The position numbers were made by a program, and so were the translations under genes. The notes beneath the pieces were generated by a model. That model saw only the letters and a program-made list of their open reading frames with translations, ran no database searches and was not told where the DNA came from. Positions 49,942 to 64,000 of a stretch of 64,000 nucleotides of DNA are shown here, piece after piece. Origin of the DNA: Diaphorobacter sp. HDW4B (GTDB lineage Bacteria > Pseudomonadota > Gammaproteobacteria > Burkholderiales > Burkholderiaceae_C); contig NZ_CP049906.1 of NCBI RefSeq assembly GCF_011305535.1, positions 372,001 to 436,000 on the forward strand. Reading direction: 5' to 3'. How positions within the stretch are numbered: the first letter of the stretch is position 1; the number at the start of each line of letters is the position of its first letter.

Positions 49942-50127
49942 TTGTTGATCTTTCCGGGTTGTGTGTTGATACGTTGAAAATACAATAAAGAAATAAAACT
50001 TTCAATAGATGAATAACTAATTTCATTAAATAGTTTGCATGTCACACTTCGCGAGTGGCAGCGGGGTGGCGGAGATGGGCTCTGGCGATTGACGGCTGTC
50101 TTGGGAATGGATGAGGAGACACGATTC

Positions 50128-51105
50128 ATGTGGAACAACCGACGGACGGTGCTTTGTCAGCTTTCGGCAGGAGCGCTGGGGGCTGTTGCGCCGATGGCGT
50201 TTGCAACAACGGATTGGCCACGCAAGCCAGTGCGGGTGATCGTGCCTTTCACGCCTGGCGGATCCACGGACATTGCTGCACGGCTGGCGGCCGAGGGGAT
50301 GGGGCGAAAGCTCGGGCAAACATTTGTAGTCGACAACCGTCCTGGGGCGGGTGGCAATCTGGGGCTGGAGGCATTGGCGCGTTCCGAAAACGACGGCTAC
50401 ACCATCGGCATTCTGACGACCGCTCATCCGATCAACAGTTGGCTCTACAAGAAACCTGGGTATGACCTGAAGACCAGTTTTTCTCCAATCGGCTTTCTGC
50501 AGGAGGGACCGATCATGTTGGTGGTCCACCCGAGTCTGCCGGTCAACTCGGTGGCCGATTTCATAGCCTATGCGAAGGCGAATCCCGGCAAGCTCAACTT
50601 TGCAACCTCGGGTACGGGAAATTCCACGCACATGGCGGGTGAGTTGTTCTGCAATCGCGCGCAGATCAAGATGACTCATGTTCCTTACAAGGGCAGTGCT
50701 CCCGCCATCGCAGACACGATTGCGGGGGTCTGTGAATTGAGCTTTGACACCATGATCTCGGCCTTGCCCCATGTGAAGGCCGGAAAGCTCAAGGCCCTCG
50801 CCATCACCACAGGCAAGCGCTCGTCAATGACGCCGGACGTGCCCTGCATCGCGGAAACCTTGCCTGGTTTTGATGTGTCCGCATGGAACGGGATGGTGGC
50901 GCCGGCGGGTACTCCCAAGGACATCATCGGCAAGCTGCACGCAGCCATGGTGGATGCGTTGGCTTCGCCGAACGTGACCAAGCGATTCACCGAAATGGGC
51001 GTCACGCCCCGTGCCATGCAGCCCGAGGAGTTCCACAAGTTCATTCTTCAGGAGGCTGAGATGTGGGGTAAGACGGTGCAGGCGGCAAAGATCACGATCG
51101 ATTGA
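50128..51105 (+). CDS. Bug/TctC-family periplasmic substrate-binding protein (copy 5)
   Basis: A 325-residue receptor. GAGGAGACACG precedes ATG 50128. The signal region NNRRTVLCQLSAGALGAV has a twin-Arg near the start and could use Tat, although the motif is not perfect. DWPRKPVRVIVPFTPGGSTD and VVDNRPGAGGNLG give the family core. First of two adjacent receptor genes before an FMN-dependent hydroxyacid dehydrogenase gene. Confidence 0.92.
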   Translation: MWNNRRTVLCQLSAGALGAVAPMAFATTDWPRKPVRVIVPFTPGGSTDIAARLAAEGMGRKLGQTFVVDNRPGAGGNLGLEALARSENDGYTIGILTTAHPINSWLYKKPGYDLKTSFSPIGFLQEGPIMLVVHPSLPVNSVADFIAYAKANPGKLNFATSGTGNSTHMAGELFCNRAQIKMTHVPYKGSAPAIADTIAGVCELSFDTMISALPHVKAGKLKALAITTGKRSSMTPDVPCIAETLPGFDVSAWNGMVAPAGTPKDIIGKLHAAMVDALASPNVTKRFTEMGVTPRAMQPEEFHKFILQEAEMWGKTVQAAKITID

Positions 51106-51180
51106 CGTATTCACGGGCTGGCCTGCGCTTTAGGTGCATGCAATGATGACCCACAACCAGAATGATTGAAGGAGACAGAA

Positions 51181-52185
51181 ATGAGTTTTCAGCGACGTTT
51201 TGCCATCAAGGCAAGTCTGGCGATGGCAGTGGCCGCTACAAGTCTATGCGGCCCCGTGGTGCAGGCCAAGGAGGAGGGTGCGGCGGGCTATCCCGCCAAG
51301 CCGATCACCTTCATCGTTCCTTATTCGTCGGGTGGACCCACAGACCTGATAGCGCGCCAACTGGCGCTTGGACTGACGAAACTCTGGGGGCAGTCTGTCG
51401 TCGTGGACAACCGCACCGGGGCAGGCGGGATCGTTGCGTTGACTGCTTTGGCGCGAGCGCCGGCGGATGGCTATACGCTTGGCATCATGGTGTCTCCAGT
51501 GACTGCCATTGCGCCGCTGACTCAGCCCAGCTTTCCATATGACGTCACCAAGGACTTCACGGCAGTATCCGACGTGGTTGACTATGCACTGGTATTGCTG
51601 GCCGGGCCGCAAACCAAGGCCAAGAGTCTGCAGGAATTGGTGGAGTATGCAAAGAAGAATCCAACTGGCGTGACCTACGGATCTTCGGGCTTGGGAGGTA
51701 CCAACCATCTCGCGGGCGAACTGTTTTCGCGCGCGTCCAGTGCTCCGATGCTGCATGTGCCATACAAGGGCAATGCTCCGGCCATCAACGACGTGCTGGG
51801 TGGTCAGATCAGCTTTGTGTTCGCGCAGACAGATGCGGCCATCGGTTTGGCCAAGAGTGACAAGATCACAGCGTTGGGCATCACCTCTTCGTCTCGCAAT
51901 CCTATGCTGCCGAATGTGCCGACGCTGGAGGAGTCCGGGTTCAAGGGAGTGGACGTCGGCGGATGGACGGGGGTCATGGGGCCTGCGAAGCTGCCTGCGC
52001 CGATTCTGAAAAAACTGGAAGATGGCATAGCGGCGGTGAAACAGTCGCCCGAATTCAAAGAGAAAATGGAGTCGCTTGGCTTTGTGATCACTGGCACTTC
52101 GTCTGCTGACTTCAGCCAGCGCGTGCGCAAGGAGCGCGACTTCTGGAAGGCGAAGATCACCGAAGCGAAGATTCAACTCCAATGA
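51181..52185 (+). CDS. Bug/TctC-family periplasmic substrate-binding protein (copy 6)
   Basis: A 334-residue receptor with AAGGAGACAGAA before ATG 51181. The signal peptide ends GPVVQA; the mature core is YPAKPITFIVPYSSGGPTD and VVDNRTGAGG, with NRPG changed to NRTG. It overlaps the FMN-enzyme start by four bases (ATGA), the only receptor here translationally coupled to an enzyme. That makes the hydroxy acid oxidised by the enzyme a good ligand guess. Confidence 0.92.
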   Translation: MSFQRRFAIKASLAMAVAATSLCGPVVQAKEEGAAGYPAKPITFIVPYSSGGPTDLIARQLALGLTKLWGQSVVVDNRTGAGGIVALTALARAPADGYTLGIMVSPVTAIAPLTQPSFPYDVTKDFTAVSDVVDYALVLLAGPQTKAKSLQELVEYAKKNPTGVTYGSSGLGGTNHLAGELFSRASSAPMLHVPYKGNAPAINDVLGGQISFVFAQTDAAIGLAKSDKITALGITSSSRNPMLPNVPTLEESGFKGVDVGGWTGVMGPAKLPAPILKKLEDGIAAVKQSPEFKEKMESLGFVITGTSSADFSQRVRKERDFWKAKITEAKIQLQ

Positions 52186-53345
52186 GACTGGACCAACTAT
52201 TGTCGGTAGGCGATTTCGAGCGCAGGGCGCGCTCCATCTTGCCGCGTGCTGTATTCGGTTATGTCAACGGTGGAACGGAAGATTGCCTGACGCTCGATGC
52301 GAATCGCGAGGCCTTTCGTGCTGTGCAGTTTCGACCGCGCGGCTTGGTGGGAGTGGCGGACAGATCGCAGTCGGTAGAGCTTTGGGGGCGCAAATACCAA
52401 CATCCGTTCGGTATTGCTCCGATGGGGGTGACGGCCATGTGCCGCCATCGTTGCGAGTGGGATCTGGCCAAGGCTGCTGCGAATACAGGGATTCCGTTCG
52501 TGCTCAGCGGCTTGTCCACACTCGCGATGGAGACCGTGCGCGAAGCCGATCCGGACTTCTGGTACCAAGGCTATATCCCGGGCGATAGAGAAGTCATCCA
52601 ACCCTTGCTCAACCGCTTGCAATCCAATGGCGTCAAGGTGCTGGTGGTGACGATCGACACGCCCTTGGGAGCCAATCGTGAAAACAATCAACGCAACGGG
52701 TTCACCATTCCCTTCAAGTTCAGTCAGGGGTTGTTTTGGGATGGCGTACGGCATCCGCGTTGGTCCGCTAATGTGTTCGCACGAACATTGCTGGCGGATC
52801 GTGCGATACCGCGGTTCTGCAATGTGGTTGCGGATCCTCACGGGTATCGAATCACCGAGGAGCCCAAAGGCGGGTTTCGCAGCGGGCGTGATCGACTCGA
52901 TTGGACGCATCTTGCCTGGATGCGTGAAGTCTGGCCGGGACGTATTGTGCTCAAGGGGGTCGCGCATCCTGACGATGCAGCAATGGCCGAGCGCATGGGA
53001 CTGGATGCAGTCATCGTCTCCAACCATGGTGGTCGTCAGCTCGACGGTGCTCAGGGCTCGCTGGACGCATTGCCGGACGTGGTCGCCGCGGTGTCATCGC
53101 AATTCCCCGTAATGATCGATGGCGGCTTTCGCCGTGGCACCGATATCCTGAAAGCCATGGCTCTTGGCGCACGCATGGTGTTTATGGGACGCCCTTTTCT
53201 GTATGGCGCGTCGGTGGCAGGGCAAGAGGGCGTGCAGCGTGTGATCGACATTCTGGGCTCGGAGGTCGATCGGAATCTTGGCTTGTTGGGGTGTCGAGAG
53301 ATGGACATGCTCAATCGAGAATTCATCGTATCCAAAGGACGTTGA
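52182..53345 (+). CDS. FMN-dependent alpha-hydroxy acid dehydrogenase/oxidase
   Basis: A 387-residue TIM-barrel flavoprotein of the lactate/glycolate/mandelate oxidase family, oxidising L-2-hydroxy acids to 2-oxo acids. Substrate and base motif: SNHGGRQLDGAQGSLDALPD (His about 287); FMN phosphate site: IDGGFRRGTDILKAMALGA; N-terminal YVNGGTEDCLTLDANREAF. Length is typical. Lacking a signal or membrane insert, it may be an oxidase or use a quinone. It complements the D-specific FAD enzyme at 46836. Confidence 0.92.
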   Translation: MRLDQLLSVGDFERRARSILPRAVFGYVNGGTEDCLTLDANREAFRAVQFRPRGLVGVADRSQSVELWGRKYQHPFGIAPMGVTAMCRHRCEWDLAKAAANTGIPFVLSGLSTLAMETVREADPDFWYQGYIPGDREVIQPLLNRLQSNGVKVLVVTIDTPLGANRENNQRNGFTIPFKFSQGLFWDGVRHPRWSANVFARTLLADRAIPRFCNVVADPHGYRITEEPKGGFRSGRDRLDWTHLAWMREVWPGRIVLKGVAHPDDAAMAERMGLDAVIVSNHGGRQLDGAQGSLDALPDVVAAVSSQFPVMIDGGFRRGTDILKAMALGARMVFMGRPFLYGASVAGQEGVQRVIDILGSEVDRNLGLLGCREMDMLNREFIVSKGR

Positions 53346-53447
53346 AATTCCGTCTTGGGCGACTCAGGCATGCATGAGATTGGACCTGCAATTGGCAGGC
53401 GGGTCTCAGGGATTCCTCTGATTCATAGGGAGGAGTTTCTAAGGTGA

Positions 53448-53478
53448 AATTGGTTTAACCAATTTGGTTTAACCAATT
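53448..53478. promoter_or_regulatory. Tandem PdhR-type GntR operators
   Basis: AATTGGTTTAACCAATT (53448-53464) exactly fits the AATTGGT-N3-ACCAATT consensus of E. coli PdhR and related FCD-GntR proteins. A second, near-identical copy follows (53462-53478), centre to centre 14 bases. The sites are 38 bases before the GntR gene at 53516. Autoregulation and control of the downstream operon are likely. Confidence 0.75.
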
Positions 53479-53480
53479 TT

Positions 53481-53502
53481 GGAGACGCCTCAGCGCGTCT
53501 CC
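53481..53502 (+). promoter_or_regulatory. Leader hairpin before the GntR gene
   Basis: GGAGACGC-CTCAGC-GCGTCTCC is a perfect eight-base stem-loop ending 13 bases before ATG 53516. The only GGAG in the leader is buried in it, so it may limit translation or be part of the transcript 5' end. Confidence 0.45.
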
Positions 53503-53515
53503 GCGCATCAGCCAT

Positions 53516-54235
53516 ATGGAAACAAGTCTCGTACTGTCACGAATCCTGCCGTTCATTCGGGAGCGCGGCTATCAACCGGGGGAGCGGATCCCATCCGAGC
53601 GTGAGCTGGCCGAGCGCTTTCAGGTCAGTCGCGGCATCTTGCGCGAGGCATTGGCCACGCTGGAGGCGATGCGGGTTCTGGAGCGCCGTCCGCAATCGGG
53701 TATCTATCTGTTGGACGTGGCTACCCAAGCTTCGGTCGATATGGTGGTGTTGGAGTCAGAGCTGGGAATGCCGACGACAACGGCTGAAGTTCAGGACCTC
53801 AATGAATTTCGTTCCATGCTGGAAATTCAGGCTGTCTCGATGGCCTGTGTCCGACGCAAGGACACAGACATCGAGAGGCTGGACTTGATCCTGACGGCCT
53901 CGCGAGCACGGCATGCGACAGGGCAGTCGTTGAGCGATCAGGATGCGCAGTTCCACATGGCGTTGTGCGCTGCCAGTGGCAACAAGCTGATTCAGCGAGC
54001 CGCCAATTCCTTTTGGCTCGCTTCGCGAGCACGCCGGGAACAGTACTTCGCAGATTCGGCCAACGGCAAGCGCTCCATTACGCAGCACACGGCCTTGCGC
54101 AATGCCGTGGAGCAGGGCGATGCGGAAAAGGCGGTGGATGTGCTCAATCTCCATCTGGGCAATGTGGAGCGTTACTGGCTCAAGCATGTGCAGCCTGGTC
54201 TGGCGGCTGCTTCTGTCAAACCGGCAGGAGCTTGA
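53516..54235 (+). CDS. GntR-family regulator, FCD subfamily
   Basis: A 239-residue regulator with wHTH (about 10-75; PGERIPSERELAERFQVSRGILREALATLEAMRVLERR) and a helical FCD domain (about 95-225; LNEFRSMLEIQAVSMA, DAQFHMALCAASGNKL, QHTALRNAVEQGD) with the usual metal-site His/Asp pattern. It is the first gene of the operon containing the NAD-hydroxyacid dehydrogenase, the enolase-superfamily enzyme and two receptors. Consensus operators upstream suggest negative autoregulation. Confidence 0.9.
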   Translation: METSLVLSRILPFIRERGYQPGERIPSERELAERFQVSRGILREALATLEAMRVLERRPQSGIYLLDVATQASVDMVVLESELGMPTTTAEVQDLNEFRSMLEIQAVSMACVRRKDTDIERLDLILTASRARHATGQSLSDQDAQFHMALCAASGNKLIQRAANSFWLASRARREQYFADSANGKRSITQHTALRNAVEQGDAEKAVDVLNLHLGNVERYWLKHVQPGLAAASVKPAGA

Positions 54236-54240
54236 GTTCC

Positions 54241-55227
54241 ATGTCCAAACCCTTGGTTTTGCTGACCAACTCGATCGACCCAGAGGTCGCTCAAGCCTTG
54301 TCTGCGGACTTCCAACTGAAGACGGCGGCTTCGACGGATGCACAGGCGTTGCGTAACGCTGCACAAGATGTGGACTACATCGTCGTCAGAGCCGTATTGC
54401 CGAGCAATATTTTCGATGTGGCGACGAGACTGCGTGCGGTGGTCCGACATGGCGCCGGATTGGACATGATTCCAATGAGCGCTGCGAGCGACCATGGTGT
54501 GGCGGTCGCCAATGTACCTGCAGTCAATGCTCGAAGCGTTGCGGAATACGCTGTTGGGCAGATGCTTTCTCTTGCACGGCAACTCCCGGAAATGGAGCGG
54601 GCACTTCGGCAGGAAGAGTGGAATGCACCGCGCTTGCAGGCCGAAAAGACTTCGGATCTGCACGGCAAGACGGTGGTCATTGTGGGCATGGGTGCCATTG
54701 GGATGGCGCTGGCCCAGATCTGCCGCCATGGCTTTGGCATGCGCGTGTTGGGTGTGCAGCGCCGGGCCATGGAGGCGGCGGATCTGTATGAGTCAACGAC
54801 TTTGGAGTCGGCCTTGCCGCATGCGGATTACTTGGTGCTGGCCTGCCCTTTGAATGACAGCACGTTTCACATGATCGACGCAGCCAGTTTGGCCCTTGCC
54901 AAACCGGGAGTACGGCTGATCAATGTGGCCAGAGGTCCGGTCGTTGACACGGCAGCCTTGATCGATGCGTTGGAGCAAGGTCAGGTAGGTGGCGCGGCGC
55001 TGGATGTGCATGAAACACAGCCATTGCCAGCGGATTCGCCGCTGCGCCGCATGCCCAATGTACGACTGACACCGCATCTGGCGGGCATTACAGCGGACAG
55101 CATGCGGCGCATGAGCGAGTCCGTGATGGCGCAGTTGCGCGAGATGCAAGCCGGTGAATGGCCCAGACATTGGTGCAACCCACAAGCCGAAGAAGCAATC
55201 CGTGCCCGTTGGGCGCGGATTGGCTGA
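54241..55227 (+). CDS. D-isomer-specific 2-hydroxyacid dehydrogenase (NAD)
   Basis: A 328-residue dehydrogenase. CAGGAG about eleven bases upstream fixes ATG 54241. The Rossmann motif is GKTVVIVGMGAIGMALAQI (about 142-160). The active-site Arg is in INVARGPVVDTAAL (about 237), Glu in DVHETQPLPADSPL (about 266) and His in RLTPHLAGIT (about 284). It interconverts 2-oxo acids and D-2-hydroxy acids; the phosphoglycerate-dehydrogenase-like subgroup is likely. It starts five bases after gntR. Confidence 0.92.
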   Translation: MSKPLVLLTNSIDPEVAQALSADFQLKTAASTDAQALRNAAQDVDYIVVRAVLPSNIFDVATRLRAVVRHGAGLDMIPMSAASDHGVAVANVPAVNARSVAEYAVGQMLSLARQLPEMERALRQEEWNAPRLQAEKTSDLHGKTVVIVGMGAIGMALAQICRHGFGMRVLGVQRRAMEAADLYESTTLESALPHADYLVLACPLNDSTFHMIDAASLALAKPGVRLINVARGPVVDTAALIDALEQGQVGGAALDVHETQPLPADSPLRRMPNVRLTPHLAGITADSMRRMSESVMAQLREMQAGEWPRHWCNPQAEEAIRARWARIG

Positions 55228-55268
55228 ACTCTTCGTTATCCATTTCCTTTCTCATTGCAGGATTGAGC

Positions 55269-56435
55269 ATGAAAATCAAAAGTATCCATGCCCGTTGGCT
55301 TCACGTTCCCATTCCCTACGAAAAGCAGCATGTGTCTGACTTCGGGCGGGTCGCCTCGTTTGATTCGGTGCTGGTGCGCATCGAGACAGAATGCGGTCTG
55401 GTCGGGTGGGGCGAAGCCAAGGAAGAGGTGGGCAGCGAGGGCAACAGCCATGGCGTGGTGGCGATCATCAACCATAAGTTCGGACCTGCGCTTGTGGGTG
55501 AAGATCCACGCGACATCAATCGCCTGTGGGAGCTGATGTACAACGGTTGTCGTGGGCACTATGCCTTGGCTCACGGACATGTGTTTCCGATTATGGGACG
55601 TCGTGGAGTGTCGATTGCAGCCATCAGCGGCATCGATATGGCGCTTTGGGACATTCTGGGAAAACATTTGAACGTTCCGGTATGGCGGTTGCTGGGTGGG
55701 CGCAAGGCCGAGCGCATGCCCGCGTATGCCTCTGGTGGCTGGGCAGATGCAGAACACATTGGCGAGCAGTTGCTTGGATACATCGCCAAGGGTGGATTCA
55801 AGTCGGTGAAGATGCGAGTGGGGGTGATTGATGGCGACCCGATTCACTCCGCACGCCGCGTGCAGGCTGCGCGTGATGCCTTGGGCCCGGAAGTGGGGCT
55901 GGCGTGTGATGCACACGGTACCTACACCGTTGCGGAGGCCAAGCGCTTTTGTCGCTTGGTGGAGGACTGCAATCTGCTGTGGTTCGAGGAGCCAGTGACA
56001 GCGGACGACAAGCAAGGAATGGCGGAGGTGCGTAAAAGCACGGCCATCCCCATTGCTGCCGGAGAAAGCGAGTTCAACCGCTTTGACTTCCGCGATCTCG
56101 TGCAATTGCGTGCCGTCGATGTGTTCCAACCGGATCTCGCGATCTGCGGTGGCATCTCGGAAGCCATGCGCATAGGTGCTCTGGCATCGGCATGGAACAT
56201 CAAGCTGGCACCCCATTTGTGGACCGGTGCATTGGCGTTTGCGGCTGGCATGCATGTGGCAGCGGCTTCTCCAGCCGGTTTCATTCTGGAGTACTCGGTG
56301 GGAGCCAATCCCCTTCTGCAGGAGTTGGCTGTGGAGCAGTTCACGGTAGAGGATGGAATGGTGGAGATCCCCGACCGCCCGGGACTGGGGATCACTGTGC
56401 GGCAGGATTTTGTCGATCGCTATGCCGTGACCTGA
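55269..56435 (+). CDS. Mandelate racemase/muconate lactonizing-family enzyme (enolase superfamily)
   Basis: A 388-residue enzyme abstracting the alpha proton of a carboxylate. Mandelate-racemase subgroup residues are present: K-x-R in FKSVKMRVG, metal ligands in CDAHGTY, WFEEPV and AGESEF, the Asp of the His-Asp dyad in FQPDLAICGG, His in APHLWTG and Glu in ILEYSVG. With both a Lys-type and a His base it could racemise or dehydrate a 2-hydroxy acid or acid sugar. The start MKIKSIHARW at 55269 is used; an upstream extension would overlap the previous gene. Operon with gntR, the dehydrogenase and two receptors. Confidence 0.9.
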   Translation: MKIKSIHARWLHVPIPYEKQHVSDFGRVASFDSVLVRIETECGLVGWGEAKEEVGSEGNSHGVVAIINHKFGPALVGEDPRDINRLWELMYNGCRGHYALAHGHVFPIMGRRGVSIAAISGIDMALWDILGKHLNVPVWRLLGGRKAERMPAYASGGWADAEHIGEQLLGYIAKGGFKSVKMRVGVIDGDPIHSARRVQAARDALGPEVGLACDAHGTYTVAEAKRFCRLVEDCNLLWFEEPVTADDKQGMAEVRKSTAIPIAAGESEFNRFDFRDLVQLRAVDVFQPDLAICGGISEAMRIGALASAWNIKLAPHLWTGALAFAAGMHVAAASPAGFILEYSVGANPLLQELAVEQFTVEDGMVEIPDRPGLGITVRQDFVDRYAVT

Positions 56436-56481
56436 TTCACCGAGACATTTCATACAAAACAACCATCAAGGAGACAATGAA

Positions 56482-57480
56482 ATGAAGGACAGGAAACTCA
56501 GGGGTACACGTCGCACGTTGCTCAAAATGTGCGTGGTTGGTACGGCGCTCGTGGCATCGATGACTGGCCATGTGCAAGCAGCCGGCAACTATCCGACCAA
56601 GCCTATCCGCTTGGTCGTGCCATTCGCTGCGGGAGGAACCACCAGCATCCTGGCGCGCATGTTGGCGGATCGAATGGGGGCCTCGATGGGGCAGCCGATG
56701 GTCGTCGACAACCGGCCCGGAGCGGGCGGAAACGTCGGCATGGATCATGTGGCCAAGTCCGAAGCGGATGGGTACACGCTGCTGATGGGCCCCATCGGCA
56801 TGGCGATCAACCCTGCTCTCTACGCTAAGATGACATTCGATCCGATCAAGGATCTTGCCCCGATCGGCCTGTATGCGGGAGTCCCCAATCTGTTGGTCGT
56901 GCATCCATCGGTTCCGGCCACGAATGTGAAGGAGCTCATCGACTATGCCAAGAGCAACCCCGGCAAGTTGAACTATGCATCCAATGGCAACGGCACATCC
57001 AGCCATCTTGCGGCTGAGATGCTCAAGGCCGCCGCGCATGTCGATATTCCTCACGTGCCTTACAAGGGGGGCGGTCCGGCAATGCAGGACTTGATTGGCG
57101 GACAAGTGCAGATGCTGTTTGATCAGATGCCGGCTGTGCTCCCGCAAGTCGATGGTGGCCGGGTAAGGGCACTGGGCGTATCCAGTCTCCAGCGCTCTGC
57201 AGCCGCAAAAGACATCCCCGCGATTTCAGAGACGCTCCCCGGCTTCGACATGACGGTGTGGTTTGGCTTTCTTGCCCCAGCAGGCACACCAGCGGACATC
57301 GTCAAGAAGCTCAATGCCGAAATGCTCAAAGCCATTCAGGCGCCGGATTTTCAGACGCAGCTCGCCAAGATGGGCGTGACGCCCATGCCGGGGAGCCCTG
57401 AAGAATTCGGGAAATTCATCGCTTCGGAAACCAAGCGCTGGGCGCAGATCGTGAAGACATCCGGTGCCAAGTTGGATTGA
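56482..57480 (+). CDS. Bug/TctC-family periplasmic substrate-binding protein (copy 7)
   Basis: A 332-residue receptor with AAGGAGAC before ATG 56482; an ATG five bases earlier terminates at once. RGTRRTLLKMCVVG looks like a possible twin-Arg signal, with processing near HVQA. The motif GGTTSILARM has Ser where the family usually has Asp after the glycine pair. VVDNRPGAGGNVG is intact. It is followed by another receptor 17 bases later. Confidence 0.92.
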   Translation: MKDRKLRGTRRTLLKMCVVGTALVASMTGHVQAAGNYPTKPIRLVVPFAAGGTTSILARMLADRMGASMGQPMVVDNRPGAGGNVGMDHVAKSEADGYTLLMGPIGMAINPALYAKMTFDPIKDLAPIGLYAGVPNLLVVHPSVPATNVKELIDYAKSNPGKLNYASNGNGTSSHLAAEMLKAAAHVDIPHVPYKGGGPAMQDLIGGQVQMLFDQMPAVLPQVDGGRVRALGVSSLQRSAAAKDIPAISETLPGFDMTVWFGFLAPAGTPADIVKKLNAEMLKAIQAPDFQTQLAKMGVTPMPGSPEEFGKFIASETKRWAQIVKTSGAKLD

Positions 57481-57497
57481 ACAAGGAGACAGCAGAC

Positions 57498-58484
57498 ATG
57501 TCATTTCACCGCAGAACTCTGATTCTCAAGACTCTGGCCGCCGTCACTACAGCGCTAGCCTGCTCGGGCGCCTTGGCACAAACGGACTATCCTTCAAGGC
57601 AGATTCGCGTCATCGTGCCGTTTCCTCCAGGCGGGGCATCAGATACTCTGGGCCGCATGGTGGCTCAGCAGCTTTCAACCGCCTGGGGACAGCCTGCCGT
57701 CGTGGAAAATCGTCCCGGTGCAGGTGGCAATATCGGTGCAGAGGCAGGAGCCAAGGCCGCGCCTGATGGCTATACGTTGACGCTGGCAGCTGCGGGGTTC
57801 ATGGCGGTCAACCCGACGCTGTATCCCAAGTTGAACTACGACTCGGCCAAGGACTTTCAGCCGGTCTCATTGCTGGTCAAAGCACCACTGCTGCTTGTGG
57901 TCAACCCCAAGGTTGAAGCCAACAATGTGCGCGAGTTCATTCAACTGGCACAGCGCTCTCCTGGAAAGATCACGATCGGCAACGGAGGCGCGGGCACCGC
58001 GCAGCATCTGGGCGGCGTGAACTTTGGGCTGTCCGCGAATGTGGATGTTGCTCACGTGCCCTACAAGGGCAGTGCTCCAGCTACCAACGACTTGCTGGGT
58101 GGAGTGACGGATGCTCAATTCGACAATTTGGTGACCCTGGTTCCTTTCGTCAAATCCGGAAAATTACGGGCTCTTGGCGTCTCCTCCAAGCAGCGTGTGT
58201 CAGCATTGCCCGACGTGCCGACGCTGGACGAAGCAGGTCTTCCCGGATTCGAGGATGGGACTTGGTATGGCATCGTTGCGCCGAAAGGGACTCCCAAGCC
58301 CATCGTCGACAAACTCAACGCCGAGTTGCACCGCATGCTCGCGCAACCAGAGACCCAGCAAAAGCTGCTGTCGATGGGGCTGGAACCAGCGGGGAATTCA
58401 CCGTCTGATTTTGGTGCGCTGATCCACTCGGAAATTTCGAAGTACCGTGCAGTGATCCAGAAGGCGAATATCAAACTGGATTGA
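57498..58484 (+). CDS. Bug/TctC-family periplasmic substrate-binding protein (copy 8)
   Basis: A 328-residue receptor, AAGGAGACAGCAGAC before ATG 57498. The signal peptide ends SGALAQ before TDYPSRQIRVIVPFPPGGASD; VVENRPGAGGNIG follows. Last gene of the GntR-controlled operon. Its sequence is well diverged from the receptor just upstream, so the pair is not a fresh duplication. Confidence 0.92.
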   Translation: MSFHRRTLILKTLAAVTTALACSGALAQTDYPSRQIRVIVPFPPGGASDTLGRMVAQQLSTAWGQPAVVENRPGAGGNIGAEAGAKAAPDGYTLTLAAAGFMAVNPTLYPKLNYDSAKDFQPVSLLVKAPLLLVVNPKVEANNVREFIQLAQRSPGKITIGNGGAGTAQHLGGVNFGLSANVDVAHVPYKGSAPATNDLLGGVTDAQFDNLVTLVPFVKSGKLRALGVSSKQRVSALPDVPTLDEAGLPGFEDGTWYGIVAPKGTPKPIVDKLNAELHRMLAQPETQQKLLSMGLEPAGNSPSDFGALIHSEISKYRAVIQKANIKLD

Positions 58485-58912
58485 GGTTTTGTGCCGCTGA
58501 AGATCCCCGCTGGATGGACTGCCTGAGGTCGAGTGGGAAAATCCAAGCCTCTCGCGGACAAGCGAGGTTCTACGAGGAGTCTGTACAGGATCTTGCGCAC
58601 ATGCAGGAACTCAACCAGGCCGCGACACGCTTGGTTGATGGGCTAGCGGCGAGGCGTGAAGCTGCTTTTCGCGAAGAAGAACCTCACTGCGGCGCTACCT
58701 GTGAAGGTCGCATCCCCGCCGCTGTGACAAGACCCACTGCGGTACCGCAACACTGCAGATCACCATCGATTGCCGCCATTTTTCCGGTGAACGAATGAGC
58801 ATTTCGTTCGCCCGGCATCGCCATGGATCGCGTCACGCAATCCATTGGCTGACAGTGAAATCCCTAACTCCCTGATCGTTGACTTCGTCCGGGTGTCGTC
58901 TCACACTAATAC
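58485..58912. other. Intergenic region, no gene recognised
   Basis: About 430 bases between the last receptor gene and tetR. A 105-residue frame (58481-58798) has no recognisable motif and is not called. No clear terminator was found. The last 60 bases should hold the tetR/mutase promoter. Confidence 0.5.
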
Positions 58913-58934: not shown

Positions 58935-59540
58935 ATGAACACCAGACGAAACACCCAACGATCGCCTCGTTCAGACAACAGACTTCCCGAGCTGTTGAGT
59001 GCGGCCGCGCGGCATTTCGGCAGTCGGGGTTATGCGGCGACGTCGATGCGGGACATTGCAGTGGAGACGGACATGCTGCCGGGGTCGATGTACTACCACT
59101 TTCCTTCCAAGGAAGCCTTGCTGGTGGCGGTCTACAGCCAGGGGGTGAGGGAGCTGGAGTCGGCGACGGCGGTGGTGATCGAGAAGGTGCTTGATCCATG
59201 GGATCGGCTGGAGACGCTGTGCCGCGCGCATCTGGAGACGGTGCTTGGTGACAGCCATTACGCGAACGTGCTGATCCGGGTGCTGCCGGACGATATTCCC
59301 GAAGCGGCGGAGCGGCTGCGGGAGATTCGTGAGGGTTACGAGAGGACTTTCAGACAAGCGGTGGATCAGTTGCCGCTGGTTCCGCGCGCCGATCGGCGCG
59401 CGCTGCGATTGATGTTGATCGGTGCCCTCAACTGGACGGCGCTGTGGTTCAACCCCCAGGGACGCGATTCCCCACGCGCACTGGCGAAGAAGTTTGTGGG
59501 GCTGATCAAGGAGACACAAGATGGCAGTTCGTCCGCCTAG
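58935..59540 (+). CDS. TetR-family transcriptional regulator
   Basis: A 201-residue regulator starting MNTRRNTQRSPR at ATG 58935. No ribosome site is seen, so the message may be leaderless; a 30-codon longer form is unlikely because it would cross the operator. The HTH is LPELLSAAARHFGSRGYAATSMRDIAVETDMLPGSMYYHFPSKEALL (positions about 14-60) and the ligand domain follows. Its last 20 bases overlap the mutase small-subunit gene, so it is cotranscribed with the operon it likely represses. Similar regulators sense acyl-CoAs. Confidence 0.9.
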   Translation: MNTRRNTQRSPRSDNRLPELLSAAARHFGSRGYAATSMRDIAVETDMLPGSMYYHFPSKEALLVAVYSQGVRELESATAVVIEKVLDPWDRLETLCRAHLETVLGDSHYANVLIRVLPDDIPEAAERLREIREGYERTFRQAVDQLPLVPRADRRALRLMLIGALNWTALWFNPQGRDSPRALAKKFVGLIKETQDGSSSA

Positions 59541-59943
59541 GGTGATTGTCACGAAGATTGGATTCGACGGGCATGACCGAGGTAGCCGCGTCATTTCCGC
59601 CACCCTTCGCGACGCAGGTATGGAAGTGATCTACACGCCGCCATGGCAGGAGATCGCCACGGTGGTCAAGCTGGCGACCGAGGAAGACGCCGATGTCATC
59701 GGCATCTCGTCGCTGGCGACCGATCACTTGATCATTCCGCAGCTCATGTCTGCGTTGAAGGCCGCAGGCCTTTCCGATGTGCAGGTCATTGTGGGTGGCA
59801 TCGTTCCGGCCAAGGACGAGGCGATGCTGCTGGAGTCGGGCGTGGCGCGGGTGTTTCACCCGGGTGCGGCACTCGACGATGTGGTCACCGATGTCATCGC
59901 GCTGACGGCCAAGCGTCGTCAACTGCAAGGAGAATCCGCATGA
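59521..59943 (+). CDS. Cobalamin-binding small subunit of an acyl-CoA mutase
   Basis: A 140-residue B12-binding domain protein. The base-off/His-on motif is [12 protein letters not shown] (DxHxxG, about residues 15-20), followed by [10 protein letters not shown] and [12 protein letters not shown]. It matches the separate small subunits of isobutyryl- and 2-hydroxyisobutyryl-CoA mutases, where methylmalonyl-CoA mutase usually has this domain fused. AAGGAG lies about ten bases upstream, within the tetR end. It overlaps the large-subunit gene by four bases, so the two should be made in equal amounts. Confidence 0.92.
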
Positions 59944-61622
59944 GCGCCGACGTGTTGAACCTCAAGCAGGCCGCAGCTCCGGATGGGCTGCGCAAATGGG
60001 AGCGCGAATTCGCGCAGGGCGTGAAGGGCGACGCGACCACGCACAACCGCTCGGGCATTGCGATCAAGCCTTTGTACACGTCGCAGGACTGGTCGGGTGA
60101 TCGGCAGGAGGAGGCACTGGCATATCCGGGTCAGTACCCCTACACACGCGGTATCTACGCGACGATGTACCGTGGCCGCAGCTGGTCGCAGCGGCAATTG
60201 ATCGGCCTTGGCGTGCCGGAGGACTACAACCAGCGGGTCAAGGAAATGCTCGATCTTGGTGCCTCCGCGCTGTCGCTGATTCCTTGCAATTCGGTGTTCA
60301 GAGGCTACGACGCCGACGAGGTTCCTCACGAGCTGCTGGGCACCTGCGGCACCGTCATCAATCATGTGAAGGACATGGACACGGCGCTCGATGGCGTGCC
60401 CATCGGCAATCTGTCCACGGCGATGAACGATCCTTCGCCATTCACCTTGCTGGCCTTCGAGCTGGCCGTGGCCAAGCGGCGCGGCATTCCATGGACGAGC
60501 ATCACCGGCACGTCCAACCAGAGCGACTGCATCTCGCACTTCGTCGCCAACCACATGTTCTTCCGACTGGCGCTGCAGGGCGCGCGCCGGGTGGTGATCG
60601 ACCACATCAAGTTCTGCAATGCCCAGGTGCCGAACTGGAATCCGCTGTCCATCGTCGGCCAGCACATGCAGCAGGCGGGCGCGACGCCGGCAGAGGCGAT
60701 GGCGTTCACGCTGGCATCGGGCATTCAATATGCCGAGGACTGCATTGCCGCGGGCATGGACCCGGACCAGTTCCTGCCTCGCTTCACGTTCTTCTTCGAT
60801 ATTTCCGTGAGTCTGTTCGAGGAAGTGGCCAAGTTCCGTGCGGGTCGACGTGTCTGGGCACGCTTGTGCCGCGAGCGCTTTGGCGCCAAGGACCCGCGCT
60901 CGTGGCGTTTCAAGTTCCACGGCCAGACCTCGGGAGTCGATCTCACGCGCCAGCAGCCGCTCAACAACATTGCGCGTGTCACCACGCAGGCCATGGCCGG
61001 CATTCTGGGCGGATTGCAGTCGCTGCACACCGATGGATACGACGAGGTGTTCTCCACTCCCACTGCGGAAGCCGCGCGCATTGCCGTGGCCACGCAGAAC
61101 ATTCTGCGCGAGGAAGCCCATCTCACCGATGTGATCGATCCGCTCGGCGGTTCGTACTACATCGAGTCGCTCACCGATGACATGGAGCGCAAGATCAACC
61201 AGATCATCGCGATGATCGACGAGGTGGGCGGCATGTACAACGCCGTCGAGAAAGGCATCGTCCAGCAGATGATTGGCGATTCGGCATTGGCCTTCCAGAA
61301 GCAGGTGGATTCGGGCGAGCAGACCGTGGTCGGTGTGAATGCCTACCAGACAGTGGAAGACCCAGCCACCTATCCAACGCTCGAATATCCCGATCCCGCG
61401 CGCATGCAGGGCTATCTCAAGCAGTTGGCGGAATTCAAGAACGCGCGTTCCAAGGATGCGGTGAAGCAGGCGCTGACCGATCTTGCACGATCGACCGAAA
61501 CACGCCAGACCAATGTCTTCGAGCATGTGGTCAGGGCGGCGGAGGCGGGCGCAACGCACGGAGAGATCTGCGGCACCTTGCGCAAGGAACTGGGATTCGG
61601 TCATCCACTCACGGTGGTCTGA
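59940..61622 (+). CDS. Large subunit of a B12-dependent acyl-CoA mutase of unassigned specificity
   Basis: A 560-residue TIM-barrel catalytic subunit of the methylmalonyl-CoA mutase family. Family segments are [25 protein letters not shown] (Arg281), SLHTDGYDE and [13 protein letters not shown] 59940 overlaps the small-subunit stop. Diagnostic positions differ from all characterised types I can recall: Leu87 for Tyr89 of methylmalonyl-CoA mutase (Ile90 of the 2-hydroxyisobutyryl enzyme), Ile114 for Asp117 of the latter, Asn204 for Arg207 or Gln, and Gln241 for Tyr243. His242 is kept. One residue is inserted in TGTSNQ and the FDLPT loop is replaced by IPCNS. A carbon-skeleton rearrangement of a non-dicarboxylic acyl-CoA is inferred. 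Confidence 0.9.
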
Positions 61623-62892: not shown

Positions 62893-64000
62893 ATGGTGTC
62901 ATCCATCGCCCTGAAGGCCCGGCAAGACCGGAACAGCTCAATGCCCTCGCAGGCAAGCGGTGCCGAAGATCGAACGGCGCTCATGGACAGAAATTCGGTC
63001 AGGGGAGTCGATGTGCAAACCACGTTTCCACGGTTGATGCTGCTGCAGGCCGAGAGCCGCGCCAAGGCTGCGGCGCTGCGCGAGAAGGAGTACGGCATCT
63101 GGCAGACCACCACCTGGTCGGAGCTGTCCCGGCTCGTGCAGGCGCTCGCTTGCGGTCTGCATTTGGCCGGACTGCAGCGCGGCGAGCATCTGGTGCTGCT
63201 TGGCAGCAATCGGCCACGACTGCAGGCGTGCATGCTGGCCGCACAGTCGCTGGGTGCGATTCCGGTGCCGCTGTATCAGGACGCGGTGGCGACGGAGTGC
63301 GTTTTCCCGATCAACAATGCCGAGGTTCGATTCTGTGTGGTCGAGGATCAGGAGCAGGTGGACAAGCTGCTCGAAGTGCGCGAGCGCTGCCCGCAGCTGC
63401 TGCGCATCTGGTATGACGAGCCACGGGGCCTGCGCAACTATGAAGAGACGGGTCTCGCGGCCATCGACACGCTCATTCAGGAAGGGCAGCAGTTTGCACA
63501 GGCCCATCCGGATTTCTTTCGCCAGCAGGTGGAGCAGGGCAGCCCATCGGATGTGGCGGCCATGTTCTTCACCAGCGGAACGACCGGCAATCCCAAGGGC
63601 GTGGTGCACACGCACGCGTCGCTGATAGACCGGGCGCAAGCGGGTGCGAATTTCGACAAGCTGACGAGCTCGGAAGAGGTGCTGGCCTATCTTCCGCCCG
63701 CATGGATCGGGCAGAACATCTTCTCCTACGCGCAGTGGCTGGTCGTGGGCTATGTGGTCAACTGCCCCGAGAGCGCCAGCACGGTGTCCATCGATCTCAA
63801 GGAGGTCGGACCCACGTATTACTTCGCACCGCCCCGAGTGTTCGAGGGCCTGCTCACCAACGTCATGATCCGCATGGAAGATGCTGGGCCGGTCATGCGC
63901 TGGATGTTCCACGCGTGCATGGCGGTGGCCAAGCGCGTGGGGCCTGCGTTGCTCGACCGCAAGCCGGTTGGTCTGCTCGATCGCATCAAGTACCAGATCG
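62893..64000 (+). CDS. AMP-dependent acyl-CoA ligase (FadD-type), cut by window end
   Basis: The first 369 codons of an ANL-superfamily ligase; it continues past the window. GGAGG seven bases before ATG 62893 fixes the start; internal Mets at 62941 and 62983 are alternatives. LMLLQAESRAKAAALREKEYG and TWSELSRLVQALACGL are typical of long-chain ligases. The AMP-binding motif is MFFTSGTTGNPKGVVHTH (about 224-241), and YLPPAWIGQN and YYFAPPRVFE follow. It lies 78 bases after the GTPase-thioesterase gene in the same direction. It would activate the acid that the mutase then rearranges. Confidence 0.9.
   Translation, partial: MVSSIALKARQDRNSSMPSQASGAEDRTALMDRNSVRGVDVQTTFPRLMLLQAESRAKAAALREKEYGIWQTTTWSELSRLVQALACGLHLAGLQRGEHLVLLGSNRPRLQACMLAAQSLGAIPVPLYQDAVATECVFPINNAEVRFCVVEDQEQVDKLLEVRERCPQLLRIWYDEPRGLRNYEETGLAAIDTLIQEGQQFAQAHPDFFRQQVEQGSPSDVAAMFFTSGTTGNPKGVVHTHASLIDRAQAGANFDKLTSSEEVLAYLPPAWIGQNIFSYAQWLVVGYVVNCPESASTVSIDLKEVGPTYYFAPPRVFEGLLTNVMIRMEDAGPVMRWMFHACMAVAKRVGPALLDRKPVGLLDRIKYQI

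Follow-up and report, generated by a model that had tools for sequence, protein, structure and literature searches.

Organization of the mutase operon

The window analyzed here is a stretch of 64,000 nucleotides from Diaphorobacter sp. HDW4B (contig NZ_CP049906.1, positions 372,001 to 436,000), and the present work deals with two adjacent genes on its + strand (59521-61622) encoding the small and the large subunit of an acyl-CoA mutase. Judged from sequence comparison and gene context, they would encode an adenosylcobalamin-dependent mutase of the pivalyl-CoA mutase type, a reading to which we assign a probability of about 0.68. The operon lies on C2, one of the two contigs of a 6.2-Mb genome, and comprises, in this order on the + strand, genes for a TetR-family regulator, the small subunit, the large subunit, a MeaB-thioesterase fusion and an AMP-forming ligase, followed by LivG, LivH, LivM, LivK and LivF.

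For the TetR-family gene (58935..59540), the ATG at 58935 was picked by eye, the open reading frame (ORF) list giving a start at 58845; this gene overlaps the start of the small-subunit gene. The small subunit P0001 (59521..59943, 140 aa) is a B12-binding domain with the motif DGHDRG, and its gene shares four bases (ATGA) with that of the large, catalytic subunit P0002 (59940..61622, 560 aa, PF01642), the closest named relative of which is from Diaphorobacter caeni (93%). Next comes P0003 (61627..62814), a MeaB-type GTPase chaperone with a C-terminal PaaI-like hotdog thioesterase. The gene for the AMP-binding acyl-CoA ligase (62893..64000) runs past the window edge to C2:436974, and the five Liv genes lie beyond the window, downstream of the ligase (L004 5972-11125).

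Family and substrate residues of the large subunit

P0002 matched PF01642 with an E-value of 2.4e-169 (564.6 bits, cut-off 22.1) and exceeded the cut-offs of TIGR00641 (505.5 vs 303.8) and TIGR00640 (133 vs 57.45). Given the PF01642 E-value and the TIGR00641 score, homology of the large subunit is beyond doubt. The small subunit matched PF02310 (E 4.7e-24), DGHDRG being its DxHxxG motif. By the large-subunit profile and this motif the pair belongs to the acyl-CoA mutase superfamily, as already stated in a first-pass annotation made from the sequence alone. An AlphaFold model of P0002, built from 52 of the 77 available family rows (P0002 included), reached a pLDDT of 77.9 and a pTM of 0.81, vs a pLDDT of only 37.6 for the single-sequence fold. 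Its best PDB matches were methylmalonyl-CoA mutase (MCM), 2-hydroxyisobutyryl-CoA mutase (HCM, 4r3u) and IcmF structures. Because loops of low confidence are present (among them 68-72, 77-81, 333-338 and 366-374), side-chain positions are not settled by this model.

Substrate residues, located at 60198..60665 (+ strand), were compared in a MAFFT alignment of 91 family rows with MCM, HCM, IcmF and ethylmalonyl-CoA mutase (Ecm) references. Of the reference positions, Tyr89 and Arg207 of MCM bind the carboxylate of the substrate, and Asp117 is catalytic in HCM. Leu87 (codon 60198-60200) stands at the place of Tyr89 (Ile in HCM, Phe in IcmF), Ile114 (60279-60281) at that of the HCM Asp117, Asn204 (60549-60551) at that of Arg207 (Gln in HCM and IcmF) and Gln241 (60660-60665, together with His242) at that of Tyr243, while one residue, Asn193 (60516-60518), is inserted before Gln194. 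The pairing of Asn204 with Arg207 depends on this one-residue insertion, on which phmmer and MAFFT agree; otherwise Ala203 would face Arg207. All these replacements, and the inserted residue, had been listed in the first-pass annotation. Its statement that every diagnostic residue is changed holds for Leu87, Ile114, Asn204 and Gln241 but is too strong, since the catalytic Gln194 (= Gln197) and His242 (= His244) are kept. Likewise, the replacement of FDLPT by IPCNS that it described is real but off by one, as I-P-C-N-S-V of P0002 is aligned with A-F-D-L-A/P-T of the references.

Judging from these positions, residues binding a carboxylate or a hydroxyl group are lost, with hydrophobic or small ones (Leu87, Ile114 and Asn204) in their stead. 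The lack of both Arg207 and Tyr89 argues against a carboxylated substrate. An indoleacetate- or phenylsuccinate-type mutase was also considered and rejected, since the second carboxylate would require the missing Arg207.

P0002 has the substrate residues of neither MCM, HCM nor isobutyryl-CoA mutase. It shares with MCM the fold and the retained His244 and Gln197, but has Leu87 and Asn204 instead of Tyr89 and Arg207, and the window enzyme is made of two separate subunits. HcmAB (4r3u; Xaut_5021 in Xanthobacter autotrophicus Py2), the best phmmer match, is also a two-subunit enzyme of the same fold associated with a chaperone and a ligase. However, identity is about 36%, Ile90, Asp117 and Gln208 are replaced by Leu87, Ile114 and Asn204, and Tyr243 is replaced by Gln241. 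Identity to the Ecm (MeaA) of Py2 is 28%, and P0002 lies outside the clade of Ecm, a single-chain enzyme with a carboxylate-binding Arg.

The lack of Arg207 would also fit a stand-alone isobutyryl-CoA/n-butyryl-CoA mutase whose residues are unusual, as IcmF lacks it too and, according to two papers (PMC10481361, PMC9974510), interconverts pivalyl-CoA and isovaleryl-CoA. IcmF thus resembles the window system both in the proposed reaction, carried out besides its own (5cjv with isovaleryl-CoA, 5cjw with pivalyl-CoA), and in being part of a chaperone fusion. Nevertheless, such an identity is improbable here: identity is low, the Phe and Gln of the isobutyryl-CoA mutase reference (a single fused IcmF, from Ideonella) contrast with Leu and Asn in P0002, and the IcmF chaperone is fused to the mutase whereas that of the window is fused to a thioesterase. 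Moreover, identity between the Py2 family member and IcmF is only about 29%, and a PF01642 protein of IcmF size (open frames of 1,104-1,150 aa) is also encoded in at least four of ten checked genomes.

Distribution, phylogeny and conservation

A GTDB genome scan confirmed 205 relatives, of which the best 80 were kept. These 80 originate mainly from Burkholderiales and other Betaproteobacteria, but also from Alphaproteobacteria and Gammaproteobacteria; rarer sources are two Actinomycetota isolates, one Acidobacteriota metagenome-assembled genome (MAG) and a few MAGs whose taxonomic labels are unexpected. Close relatives (E up to 1e-150) were present in seven of 100 near genomes, including the window's own (5/6 of the same genus, 0/54 others of the family and 2/40 others of the order). 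Among 425 plasmid records with any match, five show 60-80% identity, and the five annotated plasmid records (5/5) name the protein only as "acyl-CoA mutase large subunit family protein" or "methylmalonyl-CoA mutase". A viral_contigs scan using the Py2 protein gave no match.

A quick maximum-likelihood tree (105 rows) placed all 91 family members in a single clade with a support of 100 and a stem length of 3.06, separate from MCM, HCM, Ecm and the genome's second mutase. Only family ORFs longer than 480 aa were used; a duplicate Sphingobium row, an Acetoanaerobium row and the IcmF row are absent from the tree, whereas an IcmF-like row (L051), left out of the 91-row residue counts, is present as a far outlier. 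Since long branches meet near the base of the tree, as the program warned, the sister group of the family is unsettled. Position outside the methylmalonyl-, ethylmalonyl- and 2-hydroxyisobutyryl-CoA mutase groups supports the earlier proposal that the enzyme acts on another acyl-CoA. The same phylogeny, however, unites it in one clade with Xaut_5043 of Py2, discussed below.

Leu87, Cys116, Asn193, Gln194, Gln241 and His242 are invariant in all 91 rows. Asn204 occurs in 90 of them, with Leu in the remaining one, the Asp117 place is Ile or Leu throughout, and Tyr89 is found in none. The family is real and well conserved. Across the 18 positions examined, the exact pattern of the window protein recurs in 31/91 rows and that of the Py2 protein in 3/91; the clade of the window protein itself contains 33 rows. 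A diverged MCM or HCM keeping its ordinary substrate would account for the shared fold and for the PF01642 and TIGR00641 matches. It is nonetheless very unlikely, given the family-wide absence of Tyr89, Asp117 and Arg207 and the well-supported separation of the clade from MCM, Ecm and HCM.

Two observations were made along the way. MAG contigs assigned to Desulfovibrionaceae, Propionibacterium, Desulfobulbaceae and Nitrospira (L018, L023, L030 and L050, respectively) nest within proteobacterial mutase clades, probably through binning errors or gene transfer. Besides, a plasmid of Sphingobium sp. YC-XJ3 (L093:18911-32959) carries the TetR/small subunit/large subunit/MeaB cluster twice. TetR and the small subunit have identical protein accessions in both copies, and IS6100 and ISSp1 elements, as well as genes for thiolase and ligase, lie between and beside them; this is a recent duplication in a mobile region.

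A counterpart in Xanthobacter autotrophicus Py2

Xaut_5043, encoded on plasmid pXAUT01 of Py2, is 64% identical to P0002 over its full length and belongs to the family both by its place in the clade and by the Leu/Asn/Gln/inserted-Asn signature. The gene order in Py2 is TetR, small subunit, large subunit, MeaB, a PaaD-named thioesterase, a PaaK-like ligase, an AMP ligase and LivGHMKF, so that regulator, thioesterase, ligase and Liv transporter all have counterparts in the window operon. Identities between window and Py2 proteins are 47% for TetR (annotated TetR Xaut_5045), 68% for the small subunit (Xaut_5044), 60% for MeaB and 52% for the ligase (Xaut_5039), and 65, 65, 53, 50 and 67% for LivG, LivH, LivM, LivK and LivF, respectively. 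The two systems differ in that the Py2 thioesterase has its own gene and that an additional PaaK-like ligase (Xaut_5040) is present, for which a search of the window returned no match.

Five PF01642 matches were found in the genome taken as Py2 on account of the pXAUT01 coordinates of its contig C2, namely MCM alpha, MCM beta, Ecm/MeaA (71% identical to Ruegeria meaA), Xaut_5021 and Xaut_5043. Xaut_5021, which we take to be HCM, sits in an operon with a ligase and a chaperone and shows the residues RQIAGF, Asp at the 117 place and Gln at the 208 place. Xaut_5043 is therefore the sole PF01642 mutase of Py2 without another assigned activity. Kitanishi, Cracan and Banerjee reportedly described in 2015 a native isovaleryl-CoA/pivalyl-CoA mutase from this very organism; with the other four mutases assigned, Xaut_5043 should be that enzyme. 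A literature search returned nothing on pivalyl-CoA mutase, Xaut locus tags or YC-XJ3. The presence in Py2 of the presumed pivalyl-CoA mutase Xaut_5043, with the same signature and a matching operon, does not support the first-pass suggestion of an undescribed mutase class; the window enzyme probably does not represent one. What is new here is the MeaB-thioesterase fusion, together with the positions at which P0002 departs from the Py2 enzyme.

Gene neighbourhood and substrate

Neighbouring genes were clustered after being picked by a composition score, since longest-ORF picks had caught antisense ORFs. Among 70 loci with flanks, a relative of TetR was found near the mutase in 61, the small subunit in 69 and MeaB in 60; a PaaI-like thioesterase lay at most 3.5 kb away in 46 of the 70 loci having sufficient sequence downstream. 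A Py2-like LivK was near the mutase in 12 of 51 long loci, window and Py2 included. Its scattering, and that of the Py2-like ligase, over several clades suggests an old shared pathway. Within about 6 kb of the mutase, five loci (4/51 long loci and L080) hold a ligase 42-46% identical to that of the Py2 HCM operon, and the one tested (L085) scored 386 bits against 2-hydroxyisobutyryl-CoA synthetase 6hdw vs 245 against the best phenylacetate-CoA ligase. An aromatic substrate, as the PaaI and PaaK labels might suggest, was rejected on the ground that the ligase beside one relative is nearest to 2-hydroxyisobutyryl-CoA synthetase; this rejection is not extended to other clades.

Two Roseobacter plasmids carry, directly after the mutase operon, genes for TetR, a carboxyl transferase resembling AccD1 and that of 3-methylcrotonyl-CoA carboxylase (MCC), a hydratase, a biotin carboxylase and an acyl-CoA dehydrogenase, which is the gene set that a 3-methyl-branched acyl-CoA needs. 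As the four proteins after TetR are 99-100% identical between both plasmids, they count as one independent case. In the PDB, the carboxyl transferase matched AccD1 (612 bits), 9tps (named propionyl-CoA carboxylase beta, 597), 9yx0 (596) and MCC beta 3u9r (589), with lower matches to geranyl-CoA carboxylase (428) and other propionyl-CoA carboxylase beta chains (at most 261). Weaker matches were obtained at L060 (carboxyl transferase 40%, biotin carboxylase 49%) and L089 (biotin carboxylase 40%). The window genome itself encodes an MCC-like carboxyl transferase, a hydratase and a biotin carboxylase from C1:3184726 on, a stretch in which the dehydrogenase was not found, and a second carboxylase set, with dehydrogenase, from C1:597441 on. 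A separate MCM of canonical length accompanies the family member in nine of ten genomes chosen from the 80 loci; the tenth is G108, a 3.1-Mb MAG whose best PF01642 match is the family member.

Several of the results weigh against a pivalyl-CoA substrate. The native Py2 enzyme was linked to its presumed locus tag by elimination. P0002 differs from Xaut_5043 at seven of the 18 positions (114, 117, 119, 123, 197, 206 and 208), so that the substrate of the window enzyme could differ. The Py2 thioesterase had no match when searched against the window, and the thioesterase pair is therefore alike in kind only, without orthology having been shown. The five loci with a ligase like that of the HCM operon are all outside the 33-row clade of the window, and a ligase like that of the Py2 mutase operon (at least 40% identity) is near the mutase in only 14 of the 51 long loci, window and Py2 included. 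A full MCC-type operon adjoins the mutase in only two of 68 stretches (the 68 including L097, the Py2 HCM region without a family member), and the Roseobacter dehydrogenase scores higher with other acyl-CoA dehydrogenases (310 bits) than with isovaleryl-CoA dehydrogenase (231). Finally, a BadI-type ring hydrolase, for which pivalate has no need, is among the neighbours in part of the Rubrivivax/Caenimonas clade.

Some of these points would also fit an enzyme of the same family and mechanism if the substrates of the window clade had become larger or alicyclic ones, their alpha-carbon being quaternary or branched, such as longer 2,2-dialkyl acids, 1-alkylcycloalkane carboxylates or aryl-branched acids. 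The window clade shows I-PCNSV-Y-C-M-F where Py2 has L-PCCSG-I-Y-Q-Y (positions 114, 115-119, 123, 197, 206 and 208), and the thioesterase joined to MeaB resembles PaaI, which hydrolyses aryl-acetyl-CoA. Hydrolases of one sequence cluster lie near the mutase in L020, L022, L025-L029 and L083; the one tested (L028) is a 2-ketocyclohexanecarboxyl-CoA hydrolase of the BadI type (TIGR03210, 468.9 vs cut-off 467.6), and together with a BadH-like short-chain dehydrogenase/reductase, below its cut-off, it hints at alicyclic acid breakdown in this clade. On the other hand, the relatedness of the window and Py2 ligases and LivK proteins argues for the same imported acid. Only in one clade is the BadI-type hydrolase a neighbour of the mutase, the cluster member of the window genome being a weaker relative next to the second mutase; L027 and L083 have ligases that do not count among the Py2-like ones. 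A shift of substrate is accordingly a possible but rather doubtful alternative, and it is just as tentatively that the window clade could be seen as a distinct specificity class within the Xaut_5043 family, acting on larger or alicyclic quaternary acyl-CoAs, with a chaperone-thioesterase editing the cofactor and the acyl-CoA pool.

Proposed function

Beta-oxidation stops at quaternary carbons, and few enzymatic ways around them are known, B12 mutases being one. For a mutase of the pivalyl-CoA type, conversion of pivalyl-CoA to isovaleryl-CoA would be the single likeliest reaction. Pivalate is 2-hydroxyisobutyrate with CH3 in place of OH, and so fits the change of Asp117 to Ile or Leu. A short acid whose alpha-carbon is quaternary would be taken up by the Liv transporter and turned into its CoA thioester by the ligase. 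The 5'-deoxyadenosyl radical would then abstract a hydrogen from a methyl group, and CO-S-CoA would shift from the quaternary alpha-carbon onto that carbon, the presumed net reaction leading from pivalyl-CoA, or a close homologue, to isovaleryl-CoA or its equivalent, in this presumed direction. The beta-branched product may enter a leucine/MCC-type route. Meanwhile, MeaB would load and guard the cofactor, and the fused thioesterase could cleave stalled or excess CoA esters. From the literature, ligase and mutase act in series on 2-hydroxyisobutyrate (HCL ligase, then HcmAB; PMC7176365), and such rearrangements have been proposed earlier for pivalic acid (PMC2847961).

The cluster for import, activation and rearrangement is chromosomal or plasmid-borne and occurs in Burkholderiales and Alphaproteobacteria as well as in an actinomycete. 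With the family named, a route for pivalate and related compounds becomes open to testing, and the residue set gives a handle on substrate choice by B12 mutases.

The MeaB-thioesterase fusion

In P0003, PF03308 covers residues 18-242 and TIGR00369 residues 270-383, the latter over its cut-off (55.7 vs 36.6). The C-terminal half is not a PaaI thioesterase by TIGR02286 (272-384, 90.3 bits vs cut-off 118.9), a model that the separate Py2 thioesterase passes (129.4); PDB matches of P0003 were 6cum and PaaI. Such a fusion would couple acyl-CoA hydrolysis to mutase upkeep. A search of a paper library for such a MeaB-PaaI fusion found nothing. According to a simple motif search, in which proteins cut by contig ends were counted, 43 of the 74 MeaB calls in family loci are fused to a thioesterase. 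The nucleotide base motif of P0003 is TKAD, not NKAD; with a crude pattern, the 74 calls divide into 36 N variants, 36 S/T variants and two in which none was found.

The second mutase and upstream genes

A different acyl-CoA mutase system is encoded 12 kb downstream, beyond the window (L004:12802-17723; C2:443801-448722). It consists of an enoyl-CoA hydratase, a large subunit (541 aa), a small subunit, a CaiB-like CoA transferase (recognized by eye) and MeaB. Its large subunit retains the residues corresponding to Tyr89 and Arg207, and has Gly, Val and Phe at the places of His327, Gln329 and His363 of the window protein, because of which it may be the more unusual of the two. Upstream of the mutase operon, at 50035-58484, four related genes have, by eye, the look of Bug-type (tripartite tricarboxylate) binding proteins.

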